Translations under genes and position numbers: made by a program
Shown: positions 15,680 to 44,420 of the stretch, one piece after another
How positions within the stretch are numbered: the stretch's first letter is position 1
Layout: each line of letters starts with the position of its first letter
NCBI RefSeq assembly: GCF_004357995.1
Contig: NZ_SMTK01000006.1
Span: forward strand, 62,001 to 126,000
DNA: 64,000 nt
DNA from: Arthrobacter crusticola
GTDB taxonomy: Bacteria; Actinomycetota; Actinomycetes; Actinomycetales; Micrococcaceae
Direction of reading: 5' to 3'
The notes under the pieces: generated by a model
Told to the model about the DNA's origin: nothing
Databases searched by the model: none
What the model saw: the letters and a program-made list of their open reading frames with translations, nothing else

Positions 15680-17269
15680 TCAGAAGATCGAGTTGAGCCC
15701 GCTCCACCCGCTGCCTACCTGCACTCGGGGCAACCAGCCGGCTGACCCATTGCCCCGGTACAGCCACAGGTTGCCCTGACGATCCCGTCCCACCACGTCG
15801 GCGGTGCGGTCGCCATTGAAATCCCCTGGGCTCATCACCGCGCTGAGCGAATTCCAGCCAGTGCCCACCCGTACCCTCGGCAACCATCCACCGGTACCGT
15901 TTCCCGGATACAGCCACAGGTATCCCGTCGCTGCTTCGCGCGCCAAGAGGTCCACCTGCCCGTCACCGTTGAAATCGCCCGGCCCCACAATGGAGTTGAA
16001 CCCGTTCCAGCCCGTTCCCACCCGTACCCTCGGAAACCATCCGCCGGTGCCGTTTCCCCGGTACAGCCACAGGTACCCGGTCGACCGCTCCCGCGCCAGA
16101 ACATCGACAAACTGGTCACCATTGAAATCGCCCGGCCCCACAATGGAATTGAACCCGTTCCAGCCCTGGCCAACGCGGATCCGTGGCAGCCAACCGCCAA
16201 CGCCGTTCCCTCGGTAAAGCCACAAATACCCGGTGGCCGCTTCACGAGCCAGCACGTCGGCTTTTCCGTCACCGTTGAAGTCTCCTGGTGTCTCGAGCGC
16301 GTTCAGCGGAGCCCAGCCTGCTCCGATGCGTGCACCAGCCCATACCGTGCCGTTCCCCTTCCCCCGATACAGCCGGAGATCTGCGGTCGCCGTCACCCGG
16401 GCCAGCAGGTCGTTGTTCCAGTCACCGTCGAAGTCGGCGGTGGACCGCGAGAGGGTCGATGCCGGGACGGCTATGGGCGTGAAGGCGTAGGGTTCGCACG
16501 TCAGATCGTAATCCCGTGTGTCGTCGTACCACTGGGAGAGGTACACGCGGCCGCCGGAGAAGCTGGGCTGCTTGCACCGATCCAGCGCTTCGCCCGGATA
16601 GTCGAGCCTCCCGGCGGTGGCCCACACCGGCACCCCGGGCAACCGCCACGACCCCGTGATGTCAGCCCAACCCGCCGCATAGGAGTACAGCCCGTAGGAG
16701 AATCCCGCGTCACGGAGGCCGCGCATCAACCCCTCGATGATGAGCCGATTGTCTCGCTTCTGAGCGGCGGTGCTCGTCGGCCAGGGTTGAGCCGGACGCG
16801 GCTCGACGTCGATCCATACGACCGGCGGACGGAAACCGACTCTGCTCATGCTGGCGACGGCGAACTTTGCCTCGGCGTAGCCCACGTTGGACAATTTTCC
16901 GGCCCTGGTGGTGGCGGACCACGGTCCACGGGCACCGTACGTATTCAACTGCGTTGCAGTGGGAAACGCAGCCATTGCGTAGCCATGGGTCTTCTTGTTG
17001 TTGGTTTTGGCCCAGTTGACCTGGCTTGCCAGACAAGGATTCTCGGTAAAGGGCAAACCCTTCGTCAGCCCGATAATGACGAACTGGGTGGAGACCGGAG
17101 GCATAGGCAAACCAAATCCGCCGACGGAGGACGGACACTGAGGCCAGGATACATCGTGGCCATAGAGGGGCGCGGCGTGAACCGGCGGTGCGACGGTTAC
17201 GAACCCAAACAGGAGGGCAAGCGATGTTCCAAGAGCTAGAACCGTTCGACGGAGCGAGCCAACCACCAT
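15680..17269 (-). CDS. Secreted GH25-like protein with five FG-GAP/VCBS repeats
   Basis: The 529-residue exported protein has a signal peptide (MVVGSLRRTV then a hydrophobic core ending PPVHA), a TIM-barrel-like domain (about residues 30-255) with GHDVSWPQC and VVWIDVEP resembling the acidic active site of GH25/DUF1906 enzymes, and five FG-GAP repeats of about 50 residues each (GDFNGDG..D.LAR). The repeats should form a calcium-binding beta-propeller on the surface. ATG at 17269 has AGGTGG 5 nt upstream and is preferred to ATG 17287. The same repeat family occurs in the two secreted proteins at 22.5-28.6 kb. Probable substrate: cell-wall polymer, unproven. Confidence 0.82.
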   Translation of the reverse strand: MVVGSLRRTVLALGTSLALLFGFVTVAPPVHAAPLYGHDVSWPQCPSSVGGFGLPMPPVSTQFVIIGLTKGLPFTENPCLASQVNWAKTNNKKTHGYAMAAFPTATQLNTYGARGPWSATTRAGKLSNVGYAEAKFAVASMSRVGFRPPVVWIDVEPRPAQPWPTSTAAQKRDNRLIIEGLMRGLRDAGFSYGLYSYAAGWADITGSWRLPGVPVWATAGRLDYPGEALDRCKQPSFSGGRVYLSQWYDDTRDYDLTCEPYAFTPIAVPASTLSRSTADFDGDWNNDLLARVTATADLRLYRGKGNGTVWAGARIGAGWAPLNALETPGDFNGDGKADVLAREAATGYLWLYRGNGVGGWLPRIRVGQGWNGFNSIVGPGDFNGDQFVDVLARERSTGYLWLYRGNGTGGWFPRVRVGTGWNGFNSIVGPGDFNGDGQVDLLAREAATGYLWLYPGNGTGGWLPRVRVGTGWNSLSAVMSPGDFNGDRTADVVGRDRQGNLWLYRGNGSAGWLPRVQVGSGWSGLNSIF

Positions 17270-17441
17270 GCCAACCACCTCATCCAAGGTGAATATTTTA
17301 TCGCCGACCGCGGGTCTTGATCGGTTGGAAGCTCATCACGATTGAGGGTGTAATTGGGGCCGGAAGCCGCTCAAGCCCGGGAGACATCGAGCGATATGGC
17401 TGGAGAGATCTCGAGACGCAGGGCCGAGCTGCGGAGGGCAC

Positions 17442-20007: not shown

Positions 20008-20861
20008 CGGAGCACCCTCTCGTCCTCGGGCAGGGCGCCAATGCGCAGCATCATGCGGTAGCAGACGACCGACACCACTAGGCCTCCGGCCAGGACCAGT
20101 GCGCCGGCACCGGTGTTGTAGGCGCGGACGGCTTCGGGCCGGGTTGCCAACAGCAGCAGCACGAACCACGGTGCGGCCACGGCGAGCCGGGCAGCGTTGA
20201 CCGTCCAGGACTGGCGCGCCTCGAGTTCATTGCGGGTGCGTGCGCTGTCGCGGAGGAACTCCGACAGGGTGCCCAGCAGCCGGCCGAGGTCGGACCCGCC
20301 CACCTCGCGGGTCATCCGCAGGGCCTCGACGATGCGGTCGGCCACCGGGTCGGCGAGCCGGTCCTTGAGCCTGCTCAGCGAATCATCGAACTGCCCACCC
20401 GCCCGGTAATCCGCCCCGAACTCCCGAAACGCACCGCGCAGTTCGGCCGGCCCTTTGTCGGCGAGCTGCATGAGCGCCTCGGGAAGCGAGAGACCGGCGC
20501 GGATCGCGGAGCGCAGGTGATCGACGACGTCCGGCCAGAGCTCCCGCAGCGACGCCGTCCGCTTCGCGGCCCGCCACCGCACCAGGGCATACGGGGTCCA
20601 GGCGCCAAACAGGGCGAAACAGACAGCGATGGGCACGGAGCGGACCAGGACAACAGCAACCAGGAGAACGAGGAGCCCGCTGACTCCGCAGGCGCCCAGC
20701 AGGCCCCGCACCGAGACCGAGCCGGTCCCGGACCGCACGAGCAGCTCCCGCAGCCGGGGCGTCCGCCGCGGGCGGGCGGACACCTGGGGTGACGGACCCC
20801 AGCACGCCCACCAGGTCAGAAACAGGCCGGTCCCGAGCATCACGCCCAGGAGCGCGCTCAC
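20004..20861 (-). CDS. tadB: Tad pilus platform protein TadB-like (T2SSF)
   Basis: The 285-residue membrane protein has the T2SSF domain (LWPDVVDHLRSAIRAGLSLPEALMQLADKGP; EALRMTREVGGSDLGRLLGTLSEFLRDS) between N-terminal and C-terminal membrane segments. Together with TadC it forms the membrane platform on which the TadA ATPase acts. GTG at 20861 overlaps the tadA stop (GTGA), so the genes are coupled. Confidence 0.87.
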   Translation of the reverse strand: MSALLGVMLGTGLFLTWWACWGPSPQVSARPRRTPRLRELLVRSGTGSVSVRGLLGACGVSGLLVLLVAVVLVRSVPIAVCFALFGAWTPYALVRWRAAKRTASLRELWPDVVDHLRSAIRAGLSLPEALMQLADKGPAELRGAFREFGADYRAGGQFDDSLSRLKDRLADPVADRIVEALRMTREVGGSDLGRLLGTLSEFLRDSARTRNELEARQSWTVNAARLAVAAPWFVLLLLATRPEAVRAYNTGAGALVLAGGLVVSVVCYRMMLRIGALPEDERVLR

Positions 20862-22084
20862 CGGGCCTCCTCGAGGAGCGCCGCGATATTGAAGCCGGCC
20901 GCGGCAAACTTCTCCTCCGCGGGCATCGCCGTGGCACAGAGCCGCAGGGCACCCTCGAGCCGCCGAAAGACGGGCGAGGACTCAATGACGCCGTTTTCCA
21001 CCCGGGCGCCCACCGCCATGATCTCCGTGACCTGCCGCTGGCCGTTGCCGGCCCGCGCACAGTGCACCACGAGGTCGAGGCAGGAAGCCACGGTGGGCAC
21101 CACGAACTCACTCGAGATATTCTTGCCCGCCAGCAGCGGCAGGGTGCAGATCTTGGTCAGGGCGTCACGAGCGCTGTTTGCATGGACGCTGCACATCCCG
21201 GGCAAGCCGCTGTTGAGTGCGATGAGCATGTCCAGGCTTTCCGCCTCCCGGACCTCCCCGACAATGAGCCGGTCCGGGCGCATTCGCAGGGCCTCCTTCA
21301 CCAGGTGCCGGAGCGGGATCTCCCCGGTGCCCTCGAGGTTCGGTTGCCGGCACTGGAGCCCGACGACGTCGCGCAGCGGCAGCTTCAGTTCGAAGATTTC
21401 CTCGACCGTGATCACCCGCTCCCGCGGCGGGATCGAGGCACCCAGGCAGTTGAGCAGCGTGGTCTTTCCGGCCTGGGTGGCGCCGGAGACGAGGATGTTC
21501 AGCCCGGCCCCGACGGCGGCCCCCAGGAACCGGGCCGCCTGCGGCGTCACCGTGCCCAGCTCGATGAGGTGCTCCAGGCGGGTGGCCCGGGCGATGAAAC
21601 GGCGGATATTCACCGCCCAGTGCCGGCGGGTGACATCCGGGATCACCACGTGCAGCCGCGAACCGTCGGGCAGGGAGGCATCGACGAAGGGCGAGGAGAG
21701 ATCAAGGCGCCGCCCCGAGGACTTCAGCATCCGCTCCACGAGATCCCGGACCTGCTGGGCGGTCAGGGTCAGGGAGGTCAGCTCGGATTCCCCGCCGCGG
21801 GCGACGTAGATCTCCGAGGGGGCGTTGATCCACAGCTCCTCGACCGTCGGATCATCAAGGAAGGGCTGCAGCACCCCAAAGCCCGCGACGGCGTCATACA
21901 CCTGCCGGCGCGCGCTCTCCAGGTGGCCCAGCGGGGGCAGCGAGCCTCGAACCGACCGCTCGTCGTAGTCATTCACCGCGTCCTCCACCAGCCTCAGGAT
22001 CTCCGGAGCCTGCTCAGCAGGGTCAAGGCCGCGGCGGCGGATCAGTTCGCGCACTTCCTCCTCGACCACGCGCACAGCATCCAT
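20858..22084 (-). CDS. tadA: Tad pilus assembly ATPase TadA/CpaF
   Basis: The 408-residue secretion ATPase powers pilus assembly. It has Walker A GATQAGKTTLLN near residue 200, the Asp-box/Walker B region RPDRLIVGEVREAES, and the His-box GMCSVHANSARDALTK. The N-terminal domain ends with FLDDPTVEELWINAPSEIYV, as in CpaF. It heads the seven-gene operon. No CpaE or CpaB gene lies directly upstream; candidates are at 60-62 kb. Confidence 0.93.
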   Translation of the reverse strand: MDAVRVVEEEVRELIRRRGLDPAEQAPEILRLVEDAVNDYDERSVRGSLPPLGHLESARRQVYDAVAGFGVLQPFLDDPTVEELWINAPSEIYVARGGESELTSLTLTAQQVRDLVERMLKSSGRRLDLSSPFVDASLPDGSRLHVVIPDVTRRHWAVNIRRFIARATRLEHLIELGTVTPQAARFLGAAVGAGLNILVSGATQAGKTTLLNCLGASIPPRERVITVEEIFELKLPLRDVVGLQCRQPNLEGTGEIPLRHLVKEALRMRPDRLIVGEVREAESLDMLIALNSGLPGMCSVHANSARDALTKICTLPLLAGKNISSEFVVPTVASCLDLVVHCARAGNGQRQVTEIMAVGARVENGVIESSPVFRRLEGALRLCATAMPAEEKFAAAGFNIAALLEEAR

Positions 22085-22469: not shown

Positions 22470-25400
22470 GTGACATTTGCCACACCCCTGAGGTTGCTGT
22501 GTGCCGCTGCCGTCTCAAGCGCGCTTCTGACAACTTCACTCCCTGCATTCGCCGCCGAACAGCCGGCTCCTGCGCCCGCGCCAACCTCGGCCCCGGCCGT
22601 CGTTGAGCCGGAACCCGCCCCCGCTCCCGCAGAATCCCCGGCGGCCCCTGCAGCTCCGGCTGAGGAACCTGCCGCACCCGCCGAAGAGCCCGCCGCGCCA
22701 GCGGAAGAGACGTCCGCGCCGTCTCCGTCACCCTCAGTCGACTCTTCGGCCACGGTGACATCCGAGGACGAAGTCACCTCCTTCGTGCCGCCCGTTGACT
22801 GGGATCCTCGAAAGAACACGACGGCTCCGCCCCGGCTCGGGGAGGAATTCCTTGAGGACCACTCTGCGGGCGCAGAGTCGGAGGCCGGCGGCGACGGTTT
22901 CCATGCAGCGGCCACCGCCCCGCGGAGCGGAACGTTCAAGGTCACCCTTGTCACGGTGCAACTCCTGGGCAAGACCAAAGCCGACACCGATGCCATCAAC
23001 ATGACGGCGGCGCGCAACTCGATCATCTCCGCCCACTCCTACTGGAGGGGCGCATCGAGTGGCAGGCTCGCGATCAGCAAGGTGAATGAGTACCGCCATG
23101 TCTCCAAGACCGCGCGCATCACGGACTCCTACAACGTCATCATGGACAAGGTGACAAAGGAACTCGGCTGGGGGTATCGACCATACGAGTCGCTCGTCAT
23201 TTTCGTCCCCCACAAGGATCTGAACTACAACGGTTCGTGGGGCATTCTTGGCGGCGGGTTCACCGACAGCGACACCAGCGGCCGTGTCATCATGCCCTAC
23301 CCGTCCCTGTTGACCAACAACGTCGTCACCCACGAATTCGGGCACGTCCTCGGTCTCCACCACGCCAACTCGCTGGCCTGCAATAACGGGCGCCCCGATG
23401 TTGCCCGGGGTTCAGCCGGCTGGGCCGACCCGGCCTGCTGGTCCTCCGAGTACGGGGACACCACGGACCTGATGGGTTTCGCCCAGCCGAGCTCCCCTGT
23501 AATCGACGCCTTCCTGTGGGAGTACGGTCGATTCGGCAACGGTAATGAAATCCTCAATGCGGGAATCGCAACCGGATCCAAGCAGTACACCTTGCGCCCG
23601 TGGGCCGGCACGGCGGTCAACCGTGCGGTGAAGTTCATTGATCCAGTCAGCAAGGAAACCTATTACCTGGAACTGCGGCTTCCCGTCGGATACGACACGG
23701 CGACGGCGGTGAATGGCAACAGGGGCGTCAAGATCACCAAGAAGGATGTCCTTGGGTGGAGCGGCAACGCTTCGATCGCGCTCACCCCCAACAGCCTTCG
23801 CTGGGGCTGGGGCAACTCGAACCTCACCTGGCAGGCCGGCCAGACATTCACCACTCATGCCGGCACGCGGGTGACGATCAACTCGATCACTTCCAGCAGC
23901 GCAGTAGTCACAGTCGCGGCGAAGTCAACGGTTGTTCCGGTGGTGTTGGATAAGTCGTTGATGGTGGTCAATGCCGGGGATTTCAACGGCAGTGGCACCG
24001 ATGACCTGGTCTCCCGACGCACCGATGGCACGCTGTGGTTCCATGACGGCACCGGCACCGGTTCGTTCCGGGCCCCGGTGAGGATCGGTTCTGGCTGGGG
24101 CATCTACAGCCAGCTCATCGGCGGCCAGGACTTCAACGGCGACGGACGACCGGACCTGGTCGGGCGCAAGACCGACGGCACGCTGTGGTTCTACGCCGGC
24201 ACCGGCGCCGTCTCGGCCACCGCCGAGGGCTACAGGGGCGCGGTCAAGAGCGGTGCGGGCTGGAACGCCTTTGACATCATGGTCTCCCCCGGGGACTTCA
24301 CCGGGGACCGCCGGGCGGACCTGATCGCCCGCAAACCCGATGGCACCCTCTGGCTCTACCGCGGCACCGGCACCGGACCGGGCATCGTGACCGGCGCGGT
24401 GCGCATCGGCACCGGCGGCTGGACCGGGTTCAACATGATCACCGGCGCCGGGGACTACACCGGCGACGGCCGGGCGGATCTACTGGCCCGCAAACCCGAC
24501 GGCACGCTCTGGCTCTACCAGGGCACCGGAAACGTGAGCACCACCAGCAACGGCTACCTGCCCGGCCGGGCCATCGCCACCGGCTGGTCCGGCTACGCCG
24601 ACGTGGTAGGGGCCAGTGACTTCAACCGCGACGGCAAAACCGACCTGGTGGGTTTTAAAGCCGATATGAGCCTGTGGTTCTTCGCCGGCACCGCCATGAC
24701 GGACAACGGCTACAAACCGGCCGTCCGTACCGCCACCAGCGGCTGGCAGGACTACACCGCCCTCGTCTCCCCCGGAGACTTCAACGCCAACGGCACCCGG
24801 GACCTCATCGGCCGCAAGAAAGACGGAACCCTTTGGTTCCTCAACGGTAACGGCAGCGGGGGTTATGGGACGGCACTGAAAATCGGTGCACGCGGGTGGA
24901 ATTCCTTCGCCCAGATCCTGGCCCCGGGCGACTTCAACGCCGATGGCAGGGCCGACCTCCTCGCCCGCCACACCGACGGCAGCCTCTGGTTCTACGCCGG
25001 CACCGGAACCGTGAACACCACCAACGAAGGCTACAAACCAGGCCGCAAAATCGCAGCAACAGGGTGGCAGAACTTCGACCAGGTCATCACCCCCGGAGAC
25101 TACAACGGCGACGCCAAACCCGACCTGCTCGGCCGCCGGGCCGATGGAACCCTCTGGTTCTGGCCCGGCACCGGCACCGTCTCGGCCACCAGCCGAGGCT
25201 ACGGAACAGCCGTGAGAATCGGCACCGGGGGCTGGCAGAACTTCAACCACGTCCTGAGCCCCGGGGACTTCAACGGCGACAAACGCAACGACCTCATCGC
25301 CCGCAAACCCGACGGCACCCTCTGGTTCTACCCCGGCACCGGCACCATCAACACCACCAACCCCGGCTACAAACCCGCCACCAAAATCGGCGCCTCCGGC

Positions 25401-25562
25401 TGGAACACCTACACCCACATCCTCAGCCCCGGCGACATCACCCGCGACACCAAACCCGACCTCCTGGCCACCCGCACCGACGGATCCCTCTGGCGGTACA
25501 CCGGAACCGGAATGCCCACCAACCCCGGCTACACCACCGCAACCACCGCCGGAAAACTCTAA
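22470..25562 (+). CDS. Secreted metzincin-type zinc protease with ten FG-GAP/VCBS repeats
   Basis: The 1,030-residue exported protein has a signal peptide (VTFATPLRLLCAAAV...PAFAAEQ), a Pro/Ala/Glu-rich linker with repeated AEEPAAP (about residues 45-90), a metalloprotease domain with the zinc motif HEFGHVLGLHH near residue 288 and a DLMGF Met-turn near 333, then ten FG-GAP/VCBS units of about 53 residues (from about 492 to the end) with GDFNGDG-type calcium sites. It resembles gametolysin-like M11/M12 proteases. GTG at 22470 has GGAG 6 nt upstream; the frame is open further upstream without a signal peptide. The tail is the duplicated 1,625-bp module. Confidence 0.85.
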   Translation: MTFATPLRLLCAAAVSSALLTTSLPAFAAEQPAPAPAPTSAPAVVEPEPAPAPAESPAAPAAPAEEPAAPAEEPAAPAEETSAPSPSPSVDSSATVTSEDEVTSFVPPVDWDPRKNTTAPPRLGEEFLEDHSAGAESEAGGDGFHAAATAPRSGTFKVTLVTVQLLGKTKADTDAINMTAARNSIISAHSYWRGASSGRLAISKVNEYRHVSKTARITDSYNVIMDKVTKELGWGYRPYESLVIFVPHKDLNYNGSWGILGGGFTDSDTSGRVIMPYPSLLTNNVVTHEFGHVLGLHHANSLACNNGRPDVARGSAGWADPACWSSEYGDTTDLMGFAQPSSPVIDAFLWEYGRFGNGNEILNAGIATGSKQYTLRPWAGTAVNRAVKFIDPVSKETYYLELRLPVGYDTATAVNGNRGVKITKKDVLGWSGNASIALTPNSLRWGWGNSNLTWQAGQTFTTHAGTRVTINSITSSSAVVTVAAKSTVVPVVLDKSLMVVNAGDFNGSGTDDLVSRRTDGTLWFHDGTGTGSFRAPVRIGSGWGIYSQLIGGQDFNGDGRPDLVGRKTDGTLWFYAGTGAVSATAEGYRGAVKSGAGWNAFDIMVSPGDFTGDRRADLIARKPDGTLWLYRGTGTGPGIVTGAVRIGTGGWTGFNMITGAGDYTGDGRADLLARKPDGTLWLYQGTGNVSTTSNGYLPGRAIATGWSGYADVVGASDFNRDGKTDLVGFKADMSLWFFAGTAMTDNGYKPAVRTATSGWQDYTALVSPGDFNANGTRDLIGRKKDGTLWFLNGNGSGGYGTALKIGARGWNSFAQILAPGDFNADGRADLLARHTDGSLWFYAGTGTVNTTNEGYKPGRKIAATGWQNFDQVITPGDYNGDAKPDLLGRRADGTLWFWPGTGTVSATSRGYGTAVRIGTGGWQNFNHVLSPGDFNGDKRNDLIARKPDGTLWFYPGTGTINTTNPGYKPATKIGASGWNTYTHILSPGDITRDTKPDLLATRTDGSLWRYTGTGMPTNPGYTTATTAGKL

Positions 25563-25566
25563 CCAC
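23942..25566 (+). repeat. 1,625-bp direct repeat, copy 1 (FG-GAP tail module)
   Basis: This block reads as identical to 26944-28568, with a constant offset of 3,002 bp. It starts in the linker before the first FG-GAP unit (codons VLDKSL) and ends 4 bp after the stop codon. All stretches compared match, and translations in sense, alternative and antisense frames are also the same, which means identity at the DNA level and not only of protein. Confidence 0.95.
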
Positions 25567-25577
25567 CCCGCACCGCA

Positions 25578-25611
25578 GAGGCCCGCCGGCCCACCCGGAC
25601 CGGCGGGCCTC
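25578..25611 (+). terminator. Strong hairpin terminator after the metzincin gene
   Basis: A perfect 12-bp GC-rich stem (GAGGCCCGCCGG, 25578-25589, with CCGGCGGGCCTC, 25600-25611) with a 10-nt loop lies 16 bp after the stop and is followed by cctgccttta. It lies outside the duplicated block and should limit read-through into the lysozyme gene. Confidence 0.75.
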
Positions 25612-25654
25612 CCTGCCTTTATCGGCATGCAACGCACTATCTGGAGATCCACCC

Positions 25655-28564
25655 GTGAAAACCTACAGTCCAGCCACCCTCCTGGCCGTAACCCTTCTCA
25701 CCGCGGCACTGGTGGGAGCCACCACTCCAGTCGCCGCCCTGGCCACCTCACCAGAGGACAAACCGCTCTCCACCGCGACCGCTGAACCTGCACCATCTGA
25801 ACCGGCTGCTCCCGGTGTTCCCGCCCCTGCTGCTCCGGATACCGCGCCGGCCCCCACCTCTCCTCCGTCAGCGGTCACCCCGCCGGAGAATGCCCCTGCC
25901 CACCCGGTCCCCGCCGAGACCGGCACGTCCGCCGAAGGCGCCGCCGACCCAGAGAACACCGAATCCCCTGTCCTTTCCCCCGCGGAATACGCGCGCAATG
26001 CTGCGGCGCTGGCCAAACTCATCGGCCCCCATGGAGCAAGTCTTGGCCAGGGCGTGGAGCGCCTTGCCGAGACCGGCGACCCACAGGTGCCCACAGACGA
26101 GGAACTCGCCCGGATCGCCGAAGACGGGTCCGGCTCCCCCGGCAACGAGCTGACGCTGCCCCATGCACCCTCCGTTCAGGGAGCCGACAAGACGGGCATC
26201 ACGGATTCGCCCCAGCAGGGAGATTTCCCGATGGCCCAACCGACCTTCCAGGCGACGATCAACTACTGGAGGCCTGCAGGGATTCTCGGAGTGGACGTCA
26301 GCAGCTGGCAAGGCAACGTCGACTGGGCGGCGGCCTGGCGGCAGGGTTCGCGGTTTGCCTACACAAAGGCAACCCAGGCGCTCAACTACACAAACCCCTA
26401 CTTCCGTGGTCAATACAGCGGCGCCGAGGCGGTAGGCATGGACCGCGGCGCCTACCACTTCGCCATCCCGAACGTCTCGAGCGGTGCTGCGCAGGCCGAT
26501 TTCTTTCTGAGAAACGGTGGTGGATGGACCGCCGACGGCAAGACTCTCCCGCCGTTGCTGGATGTCGAGTACAACCCGTATCCGGAACTGGGCAACAGGT
26601 GCTACAACATGAGTCCGACCCAGATGGTGAACTGGATCCGCGACTTCTCCAACACCATGCTGCGCCGCACCGGCCGACTCCCCATGATCTACTCGACCAC
26701 CGATTGGTGGAACGGGTGCACCGGCAACAGCACCGCCTTCGCGAACCACCCCCTACACATCGCCGCCTACAACAACTGCTGCACCGGCCCCCTCCCGGCA
26801 GGTTGGCGTACCTACAGCCTGTGGCAGTACACCCATGAGGGCCCCGTCGTTGGGGACTGGAACCAATGGAACGGCAGCGCCGCCGGCCTGGATCGCTTCG
26901 TACGCAACACCACCAGTTCAACCCCTGCCCCGGCTCCTGCTCCGGTGTTGGATAAGTCGTTGATGGTGGTCAATGCCGGGGATTTCAACGGCAGTGGCAC
27001 CGATGACCTGGTCTCCCGACGCACCGATGGCACGCTGTGGTTCCATGACGGCACCGGCACCGGTTCGTTCCGGGCCCCGGTGAGGATCGGTTCTGGCTGG
27101 GGCATCTACAGCCAGCTCATCGGCGGCCAGGACTTCAACGGCGACGGACGACCGGACCTGGTCGGGCGCAAGACCGACGGCACGCTGTGGTTCTACGCCG
27201 GCACCGGCGCCGTCTCGGCCACCGCCGAGGGCTACAGGGGCGCGGTCAAGAGCGGTGCGGGCTGGAACGCCTTTGACATCATGGTCTCCCCCGGGGACTT
27301 CACCGGGGACCGCCGGGCGGACCTGATCGCCCGCAAACCCGATGGCACCCTCTGGCTCTACCGCGGCACCGGCACCGGACCGGGCATCGTGACCGGCGCG
27401 GTGCGCATCGGCACCGGCGGCTGGACCGGGTTCAACATGATCACCGGCGCCGGGGACTACACCGGCGACGGCCGGGCGGATCTACTGGCCCGCAAACCCG
27501 ACGGCACGCTCTGGCTCTACCAGGGCACCGGAAACGTGAGCACCACCAGCAACGGCTACCTGCCCGGCCGGGCCATCGCCACCGGCTGGTCCGGCTACGC
27601 CGACGTGGTAGGGGCCAGTGACTTCAACCGCGACGGCAAAACCGACCTGGTGGGTTTTAAAGCCGATATGAGCCTGTGGTTCTTCGCCGGCACCGCCATG
27701 ACGGACAACGGCTACAAACCGGCCGTCCGTACCGCCACCAGCGGCTGGCAGGACTACACCGCCCTCGTCTCCCCCGGAGACTTCAACGCCAACGGCACCC
27801 GGGACCTCATCGGCCGCAAGAAAGACGGAACCCTTTGGTTCCTCAACGGTAACGGCAGCGGGGGTTATGGGACGGCACTGAAAATCGGTGCACGCGGGTG
27901 GAATTCCTTCGCCCAGATCCTGGCCCCGGGCGACTTCAACGCCGATGGCAGGGCCGACCTCCTCGCCCGCCACACCGACGGCAGCCTCTGGTTCTACGCC
28001 GGCACCGGAACCGTGAACACCACCAACGAAGGCTACAAACCAGGCCGCAAAATCGCAGCAACAGGGTGGCAGAACTTCGACCAGGTCATCACCCCCGGAG
28101 ACTACAACGGCGACGCCAAACCCGACCTGCTCGGCCGCCGGGCCGATGGAACCCTCTGGTTCTGGCCCGGCACCGGCACCGTCTCGGCCACCAGCCGAGG
28201 CTACGGAACAGCCGTGAGAATCGGCACCGGGGGCTGGCAGAACTTCAACCACGTCCTGAGCCCCGGGGACTTCAACGGCGACAAACGCAACGACCTCATC
28301 GCCCGCAAACCCGACGGCACCCTCTGGTTCTACCCCGGCACCGGCACCATCAACACCACCAACCCCGGCTACAAACCCGCCACCAAAATCGGCGCCTCCG
28401 GCTGGAACACCTACACCCACATCCTCAGCCCCGGCGACATCACCCGCGACACCAAACCCGACCTCCTGGCCACCCGCACCGACGGATCCCTCTGGCGGTA
28501 CACCGGAACCGGAATGCCCACCAACCCCGGCTACACCACCGCAACCACCGCCGGAAAACTCTAA
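25655..28564 (+). CDS. Secreted GH25 lysozyme with ten FG-GAP/VCBS repeats
   Basis: The 969-residue exported protein has a signal peptide (VKTYSPATLLAVTLLTAALV...PVAALA), a Pro/Ala-rich linker to about residue 110, an intermediate segment, a GH25 N-acetylmuramidase domain (about 208-425) with ILGVDVSSWQGNVDW and the acidic LLDVEYN pair near 302, and ten FG-GAP units (about 431-969) identical to those of the upstream protease. It should hydrolyse peptidoglycan outside the cell. GTG at 25655 has GGAG 8 nt upstream. Four cysteines in the enzyme domain could form disulfides. Confidence 0.9.
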   Translation: MKTYSPATLLAVTLLTAALVGATTPVAALATSPEDKPLSTATAEPAPSEPAAPGVPAPAAPDTAPAPTSPPSAVTPPENAPAHPVPAETGTSAEGAADPENTESPVLSPAEYARNAAALAKLIGPHGASLGQGVERLAETGDPQVPTDEELARIAEDGSGSPGNELTLPHAPSVQGADKTGITDSPQQGDFPMAQPTFQATINYWRPAGILGVDVSSWQGNVDWAAAWRQGSRFAYTKATQALNYTNPYFRGQYSGAEAVGMDRGAYHFAIPNVSSGAAQADFFLRNGGGWTADGKTLPPLLDVEYNPYPELGNRCYNMSPTQMVNWIRDFSNTMLRRTGRLPMIYSTTDWWNGCTGNSTAFANHPLHIAAYNNCCTGPLPAGWRTYSLWQYTHEGPVVGDWNQWNGSAAGLDRFVRNTTSSTPAPAPAPVLDKSLMVVNAGDFNGSGTDDLVSRRTDGTLWFHDGTGTGSFRAPVRIGSGWGIYSQLIGGQDFNGDGRPDLVGRKTDGTLWFYAGTGAVSATAEGYRGAVKSGAGWNAFDIMVSPGDFTGDRRADLIARKPDGTLWLYRGTGTGPGIVTGAVRIGTGGWTGFNMITGAGDYTGDGRADLLARKPDGTLWLYQGTGNVSTTSNGYLPGRAIATGWSGYADVVGASDFNRDGKTDLVGFKADMSLWFFAGTAMTDNGYKPAVRTATSGWQDYTALVSPGDFNANGTRDLIGRKKDGTLWFLNGNGSGGYGTALKIGARGWNSFAQILAPGDFNADGRADLLARHTDGSLWFYAGTGTVNTTNEGYKPGRKIAATGWQNFDQVITPGDYNGDAKPDLLGRRADGTLWFWPGTGTVSATSRGYGTAVRIGTGGWQNFNHVLSPGDFNGDKRNDLIARKPDGTLWFYPGTGTINTTNPGYKPATKIGASGWNTYTHILSPGDITRDTKPDLLATRTDGSLWRYTGTGMPTNPGYTTATTAGKL

Positions 28565-28568
28565 CCAC
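26944..28568 (+). repeat. 1,625-bp direct repeat, copy 2 (FG-GAP tail module)
   Basis: This is the second copy of the block at 23942-25566. The two copies are separated by 1,377 bp that encode the terminator, signal peptide, linker and GH25 domain. Outside the block the sequences differ at once on both sides. No insertion-sequence ends or target duplications are visible at its borders. Confidence 0.95.
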
Positions 28569-28575: not shown

Positions 28576-28607
28576 AAGGCGGGGCCTCCCGAAAGGGGCC
28601 CCGCCTT
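28576..28607. terminator. Bidirectional hairpin terminator
   Basis: AAGGCGGGGCC (28576-28586) and GGCCCCGCCTT (28597-28607) form an 11-bp perfect stem with a 10-nt loop, preceded by AATGAAA and followed by CATTGTTTATT. It serves the lysozyme gene on the plus strand and the ten-gene polysaccharide operon on the minus strand. Confidence 0.8.
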
Positions 28608-28636: not shown

Positions 28637-29635
28637 TCAGCCGGCAGCGCCAGCACGGCGTTTCCCACTGGAAATCAGGGAGGAGTACAACCTGGTCAGG
28701 CGTTCAACCCCGACCCTAGCGTCATGTTCCTTCGCGACAAATCCGGGTCCGTCCTGCCGCTGTGAGGTGGCCCTCGGCTCCTCGAGCGCGCGGATCACGT
28801 CCCCGGCAACCGCCTGGATGCTCGTACCGCCGAGGTGGGTGAGCATCGGATAGAAGGACGGATCGGCGGTGCTCACCACCGGCACTCCGATCGCCAGCGC
28901 TTCGAGCTCGCTCACCGAAAGGATGCGTGTCATTTGACCGACAACCACGGATCCGGAGGCGAGCCACTCTTGGAAATGCCCGGGCGCCATCTTGGGAACC
29001 AGAGCAATTCCGGCTTCCGCTGCCTCAGCAGCCTGCTCCCCCCAGTCCAGCCCCACGAGTTCGACGTCGGGCCGCGCCTCCCGCACGCGCCGGGCAACCT
29101 CGATCTGCTGAGACGCACCCTTGACGTCGTCCCACCGGGAGGCGAACACGACGCGGTCCGGACGCGGCTGCCATGCAGGGAGTCGATCGGTCCGAATGGT
29201 GACAGGGAAGTACTGCCCCCTGTCGGTGAGGTTTTGGACGTGGGGAGCAAGATCGGGTGTAGAAAAGAGGATTGCATCGGCGTGTGCAACTCCATACTGC
29301 AGCTTGGGAGCCCAACCGTCATACTGGCGCGACCTCACATCAGTGCCGTGGAAGTGAAGCACCCACGGAGTCCGCAGCCAGCGGGCGTGCGGGGAAAGAC
29401 CGCCCGTGTGGAAGTGGACGACATCGGCCCGCGCGCTCTTCAGGGCAAGGGTCCCGTCCCACAGCACGGGCCGAGTTCGCAGAGCCGGATGCTTGAGGAT
29501 GCCTGTCCAGTCGCGCCGGTAGTACCAGGGGATGCCGGTCATTGACCACGGCTGGCCCATCTCGTTGGCTGTGGTTACGAGGTTGCGCCCCAGATTAGCC
29601 GCGTCGTGGACGTGGAGGGCCTTGACGGAATCCAT
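28637..29635 (-). CDS. Glycosyltransferase (GT4-like)
   Basis: The 332-residue cytoplasmic protein has two Rossmann-like halves. The N-terminal half has VVHFHTGGLSPHARW and WVLHFHGTDVRS; the C-terminal half has VVFASRWDDVKGASQQIEVARRVRE and SVSELEALAIGVPVVST, the acceptor-loop and donor-site patterns of GT-B fold transferases. The usual second EX7E is reduced to SELEALAIG. It is the last gene of the minus-strand operon, 10 bp after the preceding transferase gene. Sugar specificity unknown. Confidence 0.8.
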   Translation of the reverse strand: MDSVKALHVHDAANLGRNLVTTANEMGQPWSMTGIPWYYRRDWTGILKHPALRTRPVLWDGTLALKSARADVVHFHTGGLSPHARWLRTPWVLHFHGTDVRSRQYDGWAPKLQYGVAHADAILFSTPDLAPHVQNLTDRGQYFPVTIRTDRLPAWQPRPDRVVFASRWDDVKGASQQIEVARRVREARPDVELVGLDWGEQAAEAAEAGIALVPKMAPGHFQEWLASGSVVVGQMTRILSVSELEALAIGVPVVSTADPSFYPMLTHLGGTSIQAVAGDVIRALEEPRATSQRQDGPGFVAKEHDARVGVERLTRLYSSLISSGKRRAGAAG

Positions 29636-29645
29636 GCTTGTGTCG

Positions 29646-30854
29646 TCAGGCGACCCGCGTCAAGCGCTGCACGGCGTCGAGCCATGGCTGCGTGACCGCT
29701 TCCGCACTAAGTGTCTTCGCGGCGGTGTGTGACGCGTTCTTCATCTCCGCCACTTCTTCGGGAGTCAACTTCAGAAGCAAGTCAGCCGCTGATGCCGCGT
29801 CGAACCCGTCGGTGACAAGACCAAATTGATGTTCTGTTACAATGCGCTGCATTTCCGGCGAGGGGCCGATCACCACCGCGAGCCGTGCCTGAACAAATTC
29901 GAACAATTTGTTCGGCAGGGCATGCCGCATGTTGAAGTTGTTCGGTGGGCAGAGGTAAAACCCGATGTCATACCCATGAAGCAACGGGACAATCTGATCA
30001 AAAGCGACCGGGGGAATAACCTTCACAGCATTTCCAGGGATACCCTTTGCTTTCCTGGTCAGCTCATCAATGTAGCTCTGATCGCCGGGCACGAGCACTA
30101 CATCGAACGTTGCGGCGCCGGGCCGAACTTCGTTTGCCTTGGCCACGGCATCCATCATAATTTCGATGCGACGCCCGCGGCCTGCCGCACCGGCATGGAC
30201 GATTCGGAGTGGACTTGCCACTTGAGTAGGTTCAAAACGTGGGTCATACGCCGAAGCGTTGGGCACCACGGCCGGCTCCGCTATGCCGTATACACGCGCA
30301 TACTCCTCGGCTATCCCCTTCGCAACTGTGGAAACAGAATTCGCTCTCGTCACATATTTGCGGCACGCCCACTTCATGAGTGGACCGACCAGCAATCGCC
30401 ACTGAAGCTGATCCTCCCCCTGCCGCGGCGCATACTCATGCAGATCCGCGTGCACTCCCCGTGTGGGACGCAAGGCAAGTGCAAGTGGAACTGCAATGAC
30501 ATCGTTCGCCATGACCACATCTATGCTGCCTACCGGTATGCGATCCCTGACGAACTTCACCCTGTCTGAATCAAAGTAGAGGCGCTCATGAAAACGAGCT
30601 GCCAGCAGAGCTGCGACTTTTTTGTGATCGGAACGCCAAGGTTTCAGGGCGGCCGGGATGCGGATGTGTTCGACAACGCCATCCGGGGCCTCGCCGTAAC
30701 CGCAGGAGATGATGTCTGCAGAGGGCTTCAGCAAGCTGATCTGCCGCAGAACCCTTGGATCCCTGATGATGGGTGAGAAGGAAAGCACAAGAATCCTCGG
30801 CCGACTTGGCTGAACACCTTCGTTGCTTTCCGCTTCAACGACTACATCACTCAT
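29646..30854 (-). CDS. Glycosyltransferase, paralogue of the gene at 40832
   Basis: The 402-residue GT-B-like protein starts, after a short acidic tail, with RPRILVLSFSPIIRDPRVLRQ. It contains HADLHEYAPR, RIVHAGAAGRGRRIEIMM, FYLCPPNNFNMRHALPNKLFEFVQARLAVVIGPSPEM and a closing HTAAKTLS. The 40832-41998 protein has the same signposts in the same order (SFSDIQADARVLRQL, LPNKFFDFVQARLAIVFSPSPE, HTAARALS), so the two are clear paralogues at opposite ends of the operon. It is visibly richer in A/T than the flanking chromosome. Confidence 0.82.
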   Translation of the reverse strand: MSDVVVEAESNEGVQPSRPRILVLSFSPIIRDPRVLRQISLLKPSADIISCGYGEAPDGVVEHIRIPAALKPWRSDHKKVAALLAARFHERLYFDSDRVKFVRDRIPVGSIDVVMANDVIAVPLALALRPTRGVHADLHEYAPRQGEDQLQWRLLVGPLMKWACRKYVTRANSVSTVAKGIAEEYARVYGIAEPAVVPNASAYDPRFEPTQVASPLRIVHAGAAGRGRRIEIMMDAVAKANEVRPGAATFDVVLVPGDQSYIDELTRKAKGIPGNAVKVIPPVAFDQIVPLLHGYDIGFYLCPPNNFNMRHALPNKLFEFVQARLAVVIGPSPEMQRIVTEHQFGLVTDGFDAASAADLLLKLTPEEVAEMKNASHTAAKTLSAEAVTQPWLDAVQRLTRVA

Positions 30855-30904
30855 ATTTCCTTCGCTTTCGGTTAGCTAGGTTCTTGTGGGCGAGCTGGAT
30901 TGCT

Positions 30905-32701
30905 TCAGGCGAGTCCGGCCAAAGCAGCCTGCTTAGCAAAATCGGGCATTTGTGCAATTACCTCTTCGAAGGTCCCCTGGCCAGCCAGACGGCCATCGGC
31001 GAAAAAGAACACGACGTCGCTGTCCTTGATGGTGGACAACCGGTGCGCCACTGTGATGGTTGTGACGCTTCCCGCCAGGTTTCGGATCGCATCGGTCACT
31101 GCTGCCTCTGTGGAGGTATCCAGCGCACTGGTTGCCTCGTCCAAGACCAGTACAGCGGGATCCGCATAAAGGCCGCGGGCGATTCCGAGCCGTTGACGCT
31201 GACCACCGGACAACGCCATTCCGCGCTCCCCAACATCACCATAGATGCCGTCCGGACGGGCTTCTACGGCGTCGAGCATCTGCGCTCGTTTTAGGGCGCG
31301 TCGAACGCGGTCCGGGTCCACCTCGTCCGGATCCCAGGTGAGCGCAACATTCTGGGCTACAGAGGCGTCGAAGAGTGACACTTCCTGGGGCACATAACCC
31401 ACCCGCGACCGCCACGAGTGCAAGACCTCACGCATGGGCACACCGCCGATGAGCACCTCACCTGAGCTTGGCAGCAGCAATCCAAGCAGCAGATCAATGA
31501 GCGTTGACTTGCCCGCGCCCGATGACCCGACGACGGCCACGCGCGAACCTGCAGGGATGGTCATCGTGACGTCTACGAGTGCCGGCGCCGCGGTGCCGGG
31601 ATAATTGAACGTGACGTTCTTCAGCACTACATCCGGAACCCCTGGAGGAAGCTCTGCCTGATCGGGCGATTCCTCATCCTTGGCCCTAGCCTCTGCTTCC
31701 TTGATGTCGGCAAGAACCTGCTCGGCGAACGGAGTCCCGGAATGAACGGTCGAAAGAATCGACTGGAAGCGCGTGAGGGAGGGAACAATACGGAAGCCGG
31801 CCACACCGAATAGCGCAATCGCTGCCAGCGTATTCGTCACCGGGTCAATTCCCTCGGGGGTACTGATCCATCCAATAGCACCAACCAGCAGAAACCCGCC
31901 GATCAAGGCCGATTCGAGAACAAAACGCGGAACCTGACCAAGGAAAAGGGCCATTGAGCGGGCTTTGGAAGACTGCACACGGTTCGCGTGTACTGCTCGC
32001 TCAACATCAGCTGTCGCTCCCTTCAGTGTCACTTCCTTGAGTGCGCCCATCGCCTCGGTGATAAGACGCACTGTCCGCAGCGAGAACTGCCGGTTGCGTC
32101 GGCCGTTTGCCACGGCTCGCTTGGAGATGCCACGTGAAAGGAAAAGAGCTACCAGGCCCAGATAGAAAATCGCTGTGACGGCGGTGATCCAGTTGGCGAC
32201 CAGCAAGACCGTTACCACCGCGAGCACCGATACGATTTCACCGGCAAGCCCCATGGACGGCATCAGCACACCTGAGACTGTGATTGAGACTCCCGAATCT
32301 ACCGATCGAATCAGTTCCGAGGAGTTCCGCTTGAGCCGATCAACCCACGGGGCACGCATGTAGGCGGCGAGGAGTCGATCACCGATCGCCACCTCGTGGG
32401 CTGCAAATCGTGACGTGGCGAGCCGCAGGAGGAGCACGTTCATCGCGCTCTTGATGATGACCAGGGCACAGAAGATCACGAGGACGATCGCATAGTCACC
32501 CACCTCCTCGATGACGATGGGCCCTACGCGGATGGACTTGTCGGCGATGATGCTCGACATGGTGATTGCCAACAGCCCTAGGGCGACCACATCGATGAGT
32601 GCCAACGAGGAGGAGAGCACCGCATACCGGATCAGGAACCTGCGGGCGGAGTCAGGCAGAACTCCCAGAAGTCGACGGTTGATGCCAATGAGCGCTTTCA
32701 T
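30905..32701 (-). CDS. ABC transporter, fused membrane and ATPase domains
   Basis: The 598-residue half-transporter has six predicted membrane segments in the first 330 residues and an ATPase domain with Walker A GSSGAGKSTLIDLLLG, signature LSGGQRQRLGIARGL, Walker B AVLVLDEATSALD and the H-loop in TVAHRLST. It is of the MsbA/PglK type, so a lipid-linked glycan flippase is a plausible role. ATG at 32701 overlaps the DUF2304 stop by 4 bp. It is a second ABC system in the operon beside Wzm/Wzt. Confidence 0.88.
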   Translation of the reverse strand: MKALIGINRRLLGVLPDSARRFLIRYAVLSSSLALIDVVALGLLAITMSSIIADKSIRVGPIVIEEVGDYAIVLVIFCALVIIKSAMNVLLLRLATSRFAAHEVAIGDRLLAAYMRAPWVDRLKRNSSELIRSVDSGVSITVSGVLMPSMGLAGEIVSVLAVVTVLLVANWITAVTAIFYLGLVALFLSRGISKRAVANGRRNRQFSLRTVRLITEAMGALKEVTLKGATADVERAVHANRVQSSKARSMALFLGQVPRFVLESALIGGFLLVGAIGWISTPEGIDPVTNTLAAIALFGVAGFRIVPSLTRFQSILSTVHSGTPFAEQVLADIKEAEARAKDEESPDQAELPPGVPDVVLKNVTFNYPGTAAPALVDVTMTIPAGSRVAVVGSSGAGKSTLIDLLLGLLLPSSGEVLIGGVPMREVLHSWRSRVGYVPQEVSLFDASVAQNVALTWDPDEVDPDRVRRALKRAQMLDAVEARPDGIYGDVGERGMALSGGQRQRLGIARGLYADPAVLVLDEATSALDTSTEAAVTDAIRNLAGSVTTITVAHRLSTIKDSDVVFFFADGRLAGQGTFEEVIAQMPDFAKQAALAGLA

Positions 32702-33117
32702 TTCTTTTCCGACACTGTCTTAGCGCGAAAGCGAAAATCGTCAGGCCCGGCAACTCGCTCGTCTGGCGCAAGAACGGCTTCCCAGGGTTTTACTGCCTCG
32801 TCGAGGGCGATCCGGCGGGAGAGCTTTGTCAGCGTGGTCTCCATTTGGCGGAAGCGCTGGTGTGTAGTGGACATATACACAAGGAAGGAAACGATGAAGG
32901 CATAGAGCATCAGGTCCGTTCCACGACCCACACCCACCATGCTGGCGAGCTGCGTCAAGATGGTCGGGAAGAAAATTGAAAAAACGGCCGCGATAGCGAA
33001 GAGCAACACCATGATCCGGCGAATCGCCATGTGTTTTGCATTCGAGCCGCCGCGGATGAGCACGAGGGAGAAGATGACTACAACGACGAGGAGAACGATC
33101 TGAACGACTATGAGCAT
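32698..33117 (-). CDS. DUF2304-family membrane protein
   Basis: The 139-residue protein has three predicted membrane helices in the first 90 residues (LIVVQIVLLVVVVIFSLVLI, then MVLLFAIAAVFSIFFPTI, then MLYAFIVSFLVYMSTTH) and a charged cytoplasmic tail with a short coiled-coil-like stretch. DUF2304 proteins commonly follow a GT2 lipid-phosphate sugar transferase, as here, 5 bp after it. They are thought to anchor or assist that enzyme. Confidence 0.82.
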   Translation of the reverse strand: MLIVVQIVLLVVVVIFSLVLIRGGSNAKHMAIRRIMVLLFAIAAVFSIFFPTILTQLASMVGVGRGTDLMLYAFIVSFLVYMSTTHQRFRQMETTLTKLSRRIALDEAVKPWEAVLAPDERVAGPDDFRFRAKTVSEKK

Positions 33118-33122
33118 ATGGT

Positions 33123-33845
33123 TTACCTAAAGAGCAGGTCCGCCAGAATATTGACGGAATTGAGGAGGGACTGTCCCTTGGATTTCGAGTAATCGGTATA
33201 GACGATCTCTACGGGATGCTCCGTCCAGCGTGGCTTAAGGGTGGAGAGCACATGGATCAGTTCAGAGGCGTGGGCCATCCTGTTTTGGGTGAGATGGAGA
33301 TTGGACGTGACCTGCCGGTTGAAGGCACGAAGACCGTTGTGCGCATCGGTGAGGGGCATGCCGGTGCTCCATCGGATCTGGAGGGCGGCCGTGCGCAGCA
33401 CAATCCGCTTCATCGGGCCGAGCCTTGTCCTGCCATCCAGGAACCGTGATCCGAGCACCACCTCCGCCTCGCCGGACTGAATGCGCTGCACCATGGCCTC
33501 TGCATCGGCCACCCGGTGCTGCCCGTCGGCATCAAAGGTGACAACACAGCTGGCCTCGGGATCCTGCAGCACATACTCGAACCCTGTCTGGAGAGCGGCG
33601 CCCTGACCCAGGTTCACCGGGTGCTGTACGACAACCGCGCCAGCCGCGCGTGCGGCTTCCGCTGAAGTGTCTGTGCTTCCGTCGTCCACGCAAACGATGT
33701 GGGGAAATACCGGAAGAAGGTCCTTGATGACGGAGCCGATGATGGGAGCCTCGTTGAAGAGGGGGATCACAATCCAGGTACGACTCACTATGCCAGTATC
33801 GCATAGGGGACTGTTCCTCCCCGATTCGAGCTTCTGCGCACTCAC
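33123..33845 (-). CDS. GT2 glycosyltransferase, polyprenyl-phosphate sugar synthase type
   Basis: The 240-residue GT-A protein resembles dolichol/polyprenyl-phosphate mannose synthases: VIPLFNEAPIIGSVI, CVDDGSTDTS, TFDADGQHR (metal-binding DxD), and LGSRFLDGRT. No membrane segments follow, and the neighbouring DUF2304 protein may supply them. I keep GTG at 33845, which overlaps the preceding stop (GTGA) with GAGG upstream. An internal GTG at 33788 gives a more standard N-terminus but has no ribosome binding site. Confidence 0.87.
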   Translation of the reverse strand: MSAQKLESGRNSPLCDTGIVSRTWIVIPLFNEAPIIGSVIKDLLPVFPHIVCVDDGSTDTSAEAARAAGAVVVQHPVNLGQGAALQTGFEYVLQDPEASCVVTFDADGQHRVADAEAMVQRIQSGEAEVVLGSRFLDGRTRLGPMKRIVLRTAALQIRWSTGMPLTDAHNGLRAFNRQVTSNLHLTQNRMAHASELIHVLSTLKPRWTEHPVEIVYTDYSKSKGQSLLNSVNILADLLFR

Positions 33846-35809: not shown

Positions 35810-35819
35810 GAATGCAGTC

Positions 35820-36551
35820 CTAGTCTTCGCCGCGGAGGCGGCGCACCGCTTCATGGACAGGCGCGTCGAGAATGATGCGGCCGTGTTCCAAGAGGACCCC
35901 CCGCTTGCAGATCGTCGAAACCAAATCCAGGTCATGGCTCACGACAACGAGGGTCTTTCCGGCGTCGGCGAGATCCTTGATCTTGGCGATGCACTTTCGT
36001 TGGAACGGTTCGTCTCCAACGGCAAGAATCTCGTCGACGAGGAACACTTCGGGGTTCGTGTGAACGGCAACCGAGAACGCCAGCCGAAGGTACATGCCGG
36101 AGGAATAAAACTTGACCTCGGTATCGATGAAGTCCCCGATCTCGGAGAACTCGAGGATGTCATCGAAGCGCTCACTGATCTGGGCTTCCGACATGCCCAG
36201 GATGGCCCCGTTCAAATAGACATTGTCCCGCCCGCTCAGATCCGGGTGGAAGCCGGCTCCGACCTCGATCAGCCCTGCGACCCTCCCCCGTGTCCGCACC
36301 GTTCCGGTGTCCGGCAGCATCACGCCCGAGATGTGCTTCAGGAGTGTCGATTTCCCGGAACCGTTGAGGCCGAGCAACGCGACGGTTTCGCCCTGCTCTA
36401 TTTCGAGACTCACATCATGCAACGCGTGGAACTTCTTTGACAGGTCTCCCTTGCGGCCCTTCATGACCCAGACGAACGCCTCTTTAATGGAGCGCGTGTG
36501 GCGCAGGACGAACTGCTTGGAAATGCCTCGGACTTCAATTGCTGTTGCCAC
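35820..36551 (-). CDS. wzt: Polysaccharide ABC exporter ATPase (Wzt-like)
   Basis: The 243-residue ATPase has Walker A LLGLNGSGKSTLLKHI, the polysaccharide-exporter signature SSGMYLRLAFSVA, Walker B VFLVDEILAVGD and the H-loop in VVVSHDLD. It lacks the C-terminal carbohydrate-binding domain found in O-antigen Wzt, like the short RfbB/TagH forms and the mycobacterial galactan exporter ATPase. GTG at 36551 has GGAG 8 nt upstream, 2 bp after the wzm stop. Confidence 0.92.
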   Translation of the reverse strand: MATAIEVRGISKQFVLRHTRSIKEAFVWVMKGRKGDLSKKFHALHDVSLEIEQGETVALLGLNGSGKSTLLKHISGVMLPDTGTVRTRGRVAGLIEVGAGFHPDLSGRDNVYLNGAILGMSEAQISERFDDILEFSEIGDFIDTEVKFYSSGMYLRLAFSVAVHTNPEVFLVDEILAVGDEPFQRKCIAKIKDLADAGKTLVVVSHDLDLVSTICKRGVLLEHGRIILDAPVHEAVRRLRGED

Positions 36552-36553
36552 TG

Positions 36554-37459: not shown

Positions 37460-40746
<3,287 letters not shown>

Positions 40747-44418: not shown

Positions 44419-44420
44419 TT

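Follow-up and report, generated by a model that had tools for sequence, protein, structure and literature searches.

The 64,000-nucleotide stretch of Arthrobacter crusticola DNA analysed here (contig NZ_SMTK01000006.1, positions 62,001 to 126,000; hereafter the window) carries two adjacent genes for secreted enzymes, a metzincin-like protease and a GH25 lysozyme, which end in one and the same C-terminal tail. As judged from the sequences, the tails of this pair and of its relatives follow a pattern of concerted evolution, copies being more alike within than between genomes. This is best explained by gene conversion, a molecular event that we infer. Concerted evolution is here limited to the targeting module of two otherwise unrelated enzymes, and extends across many species and several kinds of tail. 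The reading that we consider probable on balance is that the enzyme pair is old, that conversion keeps its tails identical, and that the tail would address both enzymes to a glycan of the cell's own wall. The two genes are laid out as follows.

22470-25562, + strand: secreted metzincin-like protease gene, 1030 amino acids, GTG start, with signal peptide, Pro/Ala-rich stretch, zincin core HEFGHVLGLHH and C-terminal FG-GAP tail
22947-23891, + strand: conserved protease core, 65-78% identity to 19 congeners
23942-25566, + strand: tail copy 1, about 10 FG-GAP repeats (539 amino acids), a stop codon and 4 bases beyond the stop
25579-25610, + strand: hairpin between the two genes, read from the sequence, with an 11-bp perfect stem and a 10-base loop
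25655-28564, + strand: secreted GH25 lysozyme gene, 969 amino acids, GTG start, same tail as the protease (PF01183, E=2.8e-47)
26944-28568, + strand: tail copy 2
28576-28607, + strand: terminator-like hairpin after the lysozyme gene, found by a terminator scan, 13 pairs followed by a T-rich tail

The original prediction, made from the letters alone, was that the two tail blocks are identical in DNA at a constant offset and without indels. A base-by-base comparison bears this out, with 1625/1625 bases identical at offset 3002 and hence no scattered synonymous changes. At the other offsets from 2990 to 3014 the longest identical run is at most 9 bases. The identity stops at once on either side, so that the predicted abrupt divergence is also seen and the limits are exactly 23942-25566 and 26944-28568. 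Chance is excluded as the source of this identity. A separate repeat search recovers the same pair of blocks together with internal repeats, and in the whole 3.67-Mb, 15-contig genome just these two full tail copies were found, the third match to the tail being 83 bases at 73% identity. No transposase was found among the 20 window proteins scanned, no search aimed at transposition having been made. The hairpin between the genes is possibly a terminator or attenuator; it is not in the output of the terminator scan, which has a loop limit of 8.

The lysozyme scores 161.8 bits against Pfam Glyco_hydro_25 (cut-off 27), and the tail 161.6 bits against PF13517 FG-GAP repeats, above cut-off; Pfam divides it into 9 stretches, and a hand count of DGxLW-like motifs gives about 10. 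The class of the protease rests on its motif and its relatives, because the window protein itself reaches only 20 bits against Pfam M43, under the cut-off of 23. The motif HExxHxxGxxH defines metzincins, and HEFGHVLGLHH is invariant in 20/20 aligned protease rows; relatives in two other genera pass the Reprolysin_5 cut-off of 27 with 29.5-29.9 bits. A profile search against solved structures gave weak metzincin matches (best E=0.0065), the AF2 (AlphaFold2) model of the core is poor, with a predicted local distance difference test (pLDDT) score of 55, and the Pfam matches in the protease head are zinc-protease-like only.

The locus was then compared across 38 genomes of the genus, including that of the window (G000). 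The protease head is present in 35 of them and a GH25 match in 25. The two genes are complete and adjacent in 13 (G000, G001, G003, G004, G005, G006, G007, G018, G021, G024, G027, G032 and G034), a set that leaves out nine genomes whose contigs end here (G008, G009, G010, G013, G017, G019, G020, G022 and G025) and one with a deletion (G033). The same tail is found on both genes in 11 of the 13 pairs, the other two (G003 and G007) having unlike tails. Ten of the matched pairs are 99.5-100% identical in DNA over 1.4-1.65 kb, and one (G018) is at 95%. The identical bases number 1645/1645 in G001, 1647/1648 in G027, 1522/1522 in G034, 1483/1486 in G004, 1490/1491 in G005, 1483/1485 in G006, 1467/1467 in G021 and 1439/1439 in G032, while the G024 tails align over 1498 columns with four gap openings and zero mismatches. 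A search of the 38 genomes with the tail itself gave two equal-scoring copies in G000, G027, G001 and G034.

Between species, DNA identity is 56-83% among FG-GAP tails and 61-92% among LGFP tails, and tails of different kinds are unrelated. In two tail trees, from which G032 was left out, each tail has its partner from the same genome as nearest neighbour in 10/10 two-tail genomes. Along the locus G027 and G033 are 93-96% identical, so that about 100 differences would be expected between the two G027 tails had they evolved apart since the split; one is seen. The differences in coding sequence number 0 in G027, 3 in G004, 1 in G005 and 2 in G006, those of G005 and G006 being all synonymous and those of G004 not. 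G004 and G005 are single-contig genomes, so that collapse of a draft does not account for their matching tails; the draft assemblies may conceal a handful of differences. Continuing gene conversion, one of the two origins that the original prediction had offered, thus agrees with tails that match within genomes and differ between them, and the comparison across the genus shows paired, matched tails to recur.

Two observations concern individual records. In G024 (locus L052, 3079-3963) the protease tail is frameshifted by small indels relative to the intact lysozyme tail, which makes it either a decaying copy or the result of sequencing errors. A record titled Vibrio cholerae strain 35D (WNZI01000073.1, L062) encodes an Arthrobacter-like protease core, 75% identical, and is probably mislabelled or contaminated.

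The tail is replaceable by unrelated kinds. FG-GAP tails are found in G000, G001, G027 and G034 (by Pfam for G000 and G034). LGFP tails are found in G004 and G005 (by Pfam, with 493 and 441 bits) and, by the same sequence pattern, in G006, G018, G021 and G024. The tail of G032 is of a third kind, with a similarity to BTRD1 just below cut-off. It is worth adding that the G032 tail (L053, 3086-4524) holds an internal 795-bp repeat at 97.6% identity with a period of about 526 bp, from which it follows that the tail also expands internally. The FG-GAP repeat is moreover strongly expanded in one branch of the genus, G011, G030, G031 and G036 each having more than 20 matches to the FG-GAP tail, compared with none in many congeners.

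In eight drafts (G008, G009, G010, G013, G017, G019, G022 and G025) the contig ends at most about 0.6 kb past the enzyme core; that of G020 runs on for about 1 kb before ending. These ends look as an unresolved repeat would make them. For these drafts the kind of tail was judged by eye on its opening residues. G008 is the only one of the eight in which the lysozyme was found; since short contigs may be missing, its absence from the other seven was not counted as loss. In a local alignment the flanks of G033 and G027 agree at about 94%, and some 4 kb between them is missing from G033: the GH25 head is gone from the locus, there is no GH25 match in the G033 genome, and the single protease has a shortened hybrid tail in which a deletion has joined an early repeat to a late one (L042, about 6140-6630). 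The loss of the lysozyme that the original prediction expected from recombination between the copies thus fits this one relative. In G008 (L060, 3974-5368) the converse is seen, a head fusion in which a protease-like leader and signal region, recognised by eye, stands before the GH25 domain; the protease core is missing from it and G008 has no protease match. Both genomes are drafts (G033 is 91% complete), and both changes lie within contigs. It thus seems that recombination in the locus can eliminate either enzyme.

A further 80 protease loci, of which 13 lie in other branches of the genus and 67 in other genera, cover 81 of 92 further places by hand count. They were surveyed for repeats of at least 200 bases at 85% identity or more, weaker likeness being unseen at this threshold. 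Most have a protease without GH25 nearby: a GH25 match is present in 5/80 and adjacent in 4/80. All four adjacent pairs outside the main clade carry like tails, three LGFP and one SLH. The LGFP pairs belong to a second genus (L138, L163 and L118), in which the lysozyme comes first and the tails are 99.83% identical over 1811 bp in G281 (L138), 97.5% over 1318 bp in G373 (L163) and 87% over 1728 bp in G234 (L118). These three loci adjoin the same T2SSE gene as the window's pair, at 78-79% amino acid identity, a gene found in 6 of the 80 loci altogether. In a third genus (G071, L164, 6853-10353, minus strand) the protease comes first and both enzymes have SLH domains, a fourth kind of matched tail; the record has a run of N in the protease tail. 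At the remaining locus, L112, GH25 lies about 6 kb from the protease and the tails are unlike. Like the unlike pairs of G003 (L045) and G007 (L049), L112 has a protease module of at least four repeats without a clear Pfam family and a different, short lysozyme module.

The pair lies in an island that can be delimited by comparison with a sister genome, G027, and that extends into a cluster of surface-glycan genes.

20861-22084, - strand: T2SSE (pilus-type ATPase) gene next to the pair
22095-44460: island relative to G027, with the protease, the lysozyme and the left part of the glycan cluster, 66-83% identity where alignable
28640-44418: surface-glycan genes, namely glycosyltransferases, ABC transporter parts, DUF6541, a GlfT2-like transferase and UDP-galactopyranose mutase
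42016-43071, + strand: UDP-GlcNAc 2-epimerase (WecB type), inside the exchanged block
44424-45740, - strand: GFO/IDH/MocA oxidoreductase, oxidase class of the UDP-ManNAc3NAcA route, just outside the exchanged block
45412-46500, - strand: DegT/DnrJ sugar aminotransferase, used as the route marker in the 38 genomes
46500-47243, - strand: hexapeptide acetyltransferase
47176-48462, - strand: UDP-sugar dehydrogenase

In the alignment of the window with G027, identity is about 91% to the left of 22095, falls to 66-83% in the alignable parts between about 23.1 and 43.1 kb, and returns to 91-92% from 44460 onwards. A glutamate dehydrogenase gene 30 kb away is 97-98% identical among G000, G027 and G033, yet against the protease head of G000 those of G027 and G033 reach only 59% and 56%. 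This mosaic of identities implies a joint exchange of the enzyme pair and the left part of the surface-glycan cluster. The T2SSE gene is present in all 5 of the 14 compared islands whose stretch extends that far. A further FG-GAP protein of the window (15683-17287, minus strand; 535 amino acids, PF13517), near the pilus-type secretion genes and 47% identical to part of the tail, sits in a stretch about 91% identical to G027, unlike the protease-lysozyme pair.

On the dehydrogenase tree, sister species differ in tail kind in two cases (G003 and G006; G007 and G019). The tail kinds require 10 changes on this tree (28 rows) against 8 on the protease tree (26 rows), a modest difference. In the tail-switch sisters G006/G003 and G004/G032, the adjacent half of the glycan cluster shows either no similarity or patchy similarity, and beyond the switched half identity resumes at 93% or 85%. 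In the same-tail sisters G004/G021, G005/G024 and G027/G033 the glycan cluster is kept, apart from gaps. In both switch contrasts that were examined, then, the tail kind and the adjacent glycan genes change together. Other glycan genes occupy the island of the LGFP genome G004: among eight proteins scanned there are two GT2 proteins, an epimerase, an acyltransferase and a nucleotidyltransferase.

A profile of the FG-GAP tail matched 8w20_C with E=4.1e-29 over 243 positions, the next match having E=0.0044; 8W20 was deposited by a paper on umbrella toxins (PMC11062931, available text). On this profile match the tail is a putative propeller lectin related to UmbA. A structure search with the tail returned PLL lectins and TUA-bound UmbA4; the tail model has a pLDDT of 78.6 and a predicted template modelling score (pTM) of 0.50, and fixes neither the number of blades nor the closure of the ring. 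According to the available text of PMC13274773, the ligand of the UmbA4 propeller is a polymer built from ManNAc3NAcA and GalNAc, with gene loci that differ from species to species, and the route to the ManNAc3NAcA precursor runs through a dehydrogenase, an aminotransferase paired with an oxidase, an acetyltransferase and a 2-epimerase. All five of these Pfam classes are encoded at 42016-48462 of the window, and two of the five genes pass an NCBIfam cut-off, as wecB (the epimerase) and as a general NDP-sugar dehydrogenase subfamily. With the aminotransferase gene as marker, at 84% identity or more, the route is marked in 9/10 genomes that have FG-GAP tails at the locus compared with 2/13 that have other tails (Fisher p=6e-4). 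Over the whole genome, at least two FG-GAP matches are found in 17/21 marker-positive and 2/17 marker-negative genomes (p=5e-5). As for the other common tail, LGFP is listed among the cell-wall-binding domains of lysins, perhaps as specific to Corynebacteriales, in the available text of PMC8223927.

The reading that we favour would then run as follows. The secreted zinc protease and the GH25 muramidase would be partners of long standing, each with its own C-terminal binding tail. The tails lie 3 kb apart in direct orientation, and gene conversion would keep rewriting one from the other; because it acts between nearby direct copies, the two would stay identical while the tails of different species drift or are replaced. 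The tail would be the substrate-finding part, with a glycopolymer on the cell's own wall as its most likely ligand: a ManNAc3NAcA-containing teichuronic-type polymer may be bound by FG-GAP tails, and other wall ligands by LGFP and SLH tails. Tail kind and neighbouring glycan genes would move as a linked block, so that both enzymes fit the incoming wall; a single cassette exchange would bring two matched tails, and conversion would then keep the match. Arthrobacter has a rod-coccus cycle, and a role in wall turnover, for example in cell separation, may be envisaged. In its strongest form the proposal is of a self-matching locus, in which enzymes and glycan cluster are one exchangeable block with conversion-matched tails, and the FG-GAP tails are lectins for the ManNAc3NAcA-type polymer made nearby; this we put forward tentatively, as somewhat less likely true than not.

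A number of observations weigh against these proposals. The comparison takes one genome per species. Tail matching is not obligatory, given G003, G007 and L112; the two kinds of tail in L112 correspond to those of G003 and G007 (36-41% amino acid identity), so that the unlike combination recurs in another genus. The G018 tails are only 95% identical, over 828 columns, and the SLH tails of G071 are 62% identical in amino acids over 115 residues and only 80% in DNA over 150 bases. On the side of the ligand, the structural alignments to lectins are poor, with template modelling (TM) scores of 0.23-0.45 and root-mean-square deviations of 15-25 Å, and FG-GAP is a broad fold, in which kinship to UmbA does not fix the ligand. 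Marker and tail are discordant in 3/23 genomes, G008 having an FG-GAP tail without the marker, and G018 and G025 LGFP tails with it. A phylogeny-aware test of correlated evolution (our own script, on the dehydrogenase tree) gave p=0.14 for the locus with 23 genomes, which is not significant, and p=0.03 genome-wide with 36 genomes, which is weak; these values make the link of the tail to ManNAc3NAcA suggestive only. Of the five ManNAc3NAcA-type genes, the four at 44424-48462 fall beyond the edge of the G000/G027 exchange, in sequence that is 91-92% identical. Finally, the four genomes of the switch contrasts (G004, G006, G003 and G032) all lack the aminotransferase marker, so that these contrasts favour a link between tail and glycan in general and not this sugar.

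The precedent of UmbA also makes it possible, by analogy, that the target of the tail is other than self, as UmbA lectins bind the walls of other species (PMC13274773, available text). The conversion would be the same, and the pair would be a secreted bacteriolytic weapon whose lectin tail recognises the walls of competitors. A protease and a muramidase make a plausible lytic pair, and the turnover of tail kinds resembles an arms race. Against this, the contrasts examined show the tail kind switching along with glycan genes of the producer itself, and the tail kind also follows the marker, though only weakly once phylogeny is corrected for. One pair moreover carries SLH domains, which anchor to the bearer's own wall polymers. 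We regard a weapon as unlikely, although it is the likeliest of the alternatives.

It could also be supposed that conversion is a by-product of proximity, that the tails are adhesive repeats of a generic sort with no ligand to match, and that the glycan genes change with them through a recombination hot spot in the island. The discordant genomes, the weak phylogeny-aware support and the exchange of the island as a block would all fit. Proximity does less well with the second genus, where the gene order is opposite and the tails still match, and with the third, where SLH is on both enzymes; and conversion alone cannot make matched tails from unlike ones, while unrelated tail kinds are matched in 11 of the 13 pairs. 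This explanation is doubtful.

That one tail was sequenced and printed twice, or that small differences were smoothed, has in its favour that G000, G001, G027 and G034 are drafts, and that the repeat seems to trouble assemblers, as the eight drafts ending near the enzyme core indicate, so that a few differences could be hidden. The tails of the single-contig genomes G004 and G005 nevertheless differ at 3 and 1 positions over about 1.49 kb, the same pattern is found again where the tail sequences are unrelated, and collapse could not make identical two tails as different as those of different species. Assembly collapse as the whole story is ruled out by the single-contig genomes and the unrelated tails, and an artefact of any kind is very improbable. 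A very recent duplication in this strain only, the other origin first suggested for the block, would account for its perfect identity and is ruled out by relatives with the same protease-tail-lysozyme-tail plan, in ten other species of the genus and, in reversed order, in another genus; its probability is close to nil.

To our knowledge, the ligands of FG-GAP and LGFP repeats are mostly unknown. If the tail is a key to the adjacent glycan cluster, the locus provides a natural series of pairs of tail and wall glycan, and the ligands of both repeats would become predictable and testable. It would also show how wall enzymes keep pace when horizontal transfer replaces the surface glycan. The locus is in addition a clear bacterial case of concerted evolution confined to the targeting module of two unrelated enzymes.

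Searches under Arthrobacter FG-GAP lysozymes, concerted evolution of C-terminal domains, lysozyme/metalloprotease gene conversion and Caldicellulosiruptor CBM3 gave no paper on this locus among the titles listed, in a literature with few subscription journals covered. Gingipains are cysteine proteases, and no cysteine-protease domain is found here, the head matching only zinc-protease-like families in Pfam. The closest precedent for shared modules is the system of gingipains RgpA and Kgp with HagA in Porphyromonas gingivalis, in which automated assembly fails at the repeats and strains differ in their domains in a modular way (PMC5266723, available text). That system differs in having adhesin (CAD/DUF2436) modules and, in the same available text, neither a lysozyme partner nor a linkage to a glycan cluster. 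The UmbA lectins of Streptomyces umbrella toxins are alike in being variable C-terminal propeller lectins, as the match to 8w20_C indicates. They differ in that a trypsin-like domain is joined to the lectin, none being among the Pfam matches of our protease or lysozyme, and in that here two enzymes share one tail whose kind goes with the producer's own glycan genes. Wall enzymes and phage lysins of actinobacteria with LGFP repeats share LGFP as a wall-binding domain (PMC8223927, available text); here, LGFP is one of several interchangeable tails on an enzyme pair, duplicated at the DNA level. The pair of the third genus (G071), with SLH on both enzymes, resembles SLH-anchored wall enzymes, in which SLH binds secondary cell-wall polymers, although SLH is not the tail in the window or the main clade. 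In tufA/tufB and in rRNA operons, paralogues are likewise more alike within a genome than orthologues are between genomes; unlike those cases, homogenisation is here confined to a C-terminal module shared by two genes that are otherwise unrelated, and this module can be replaced by a non-homologous one.

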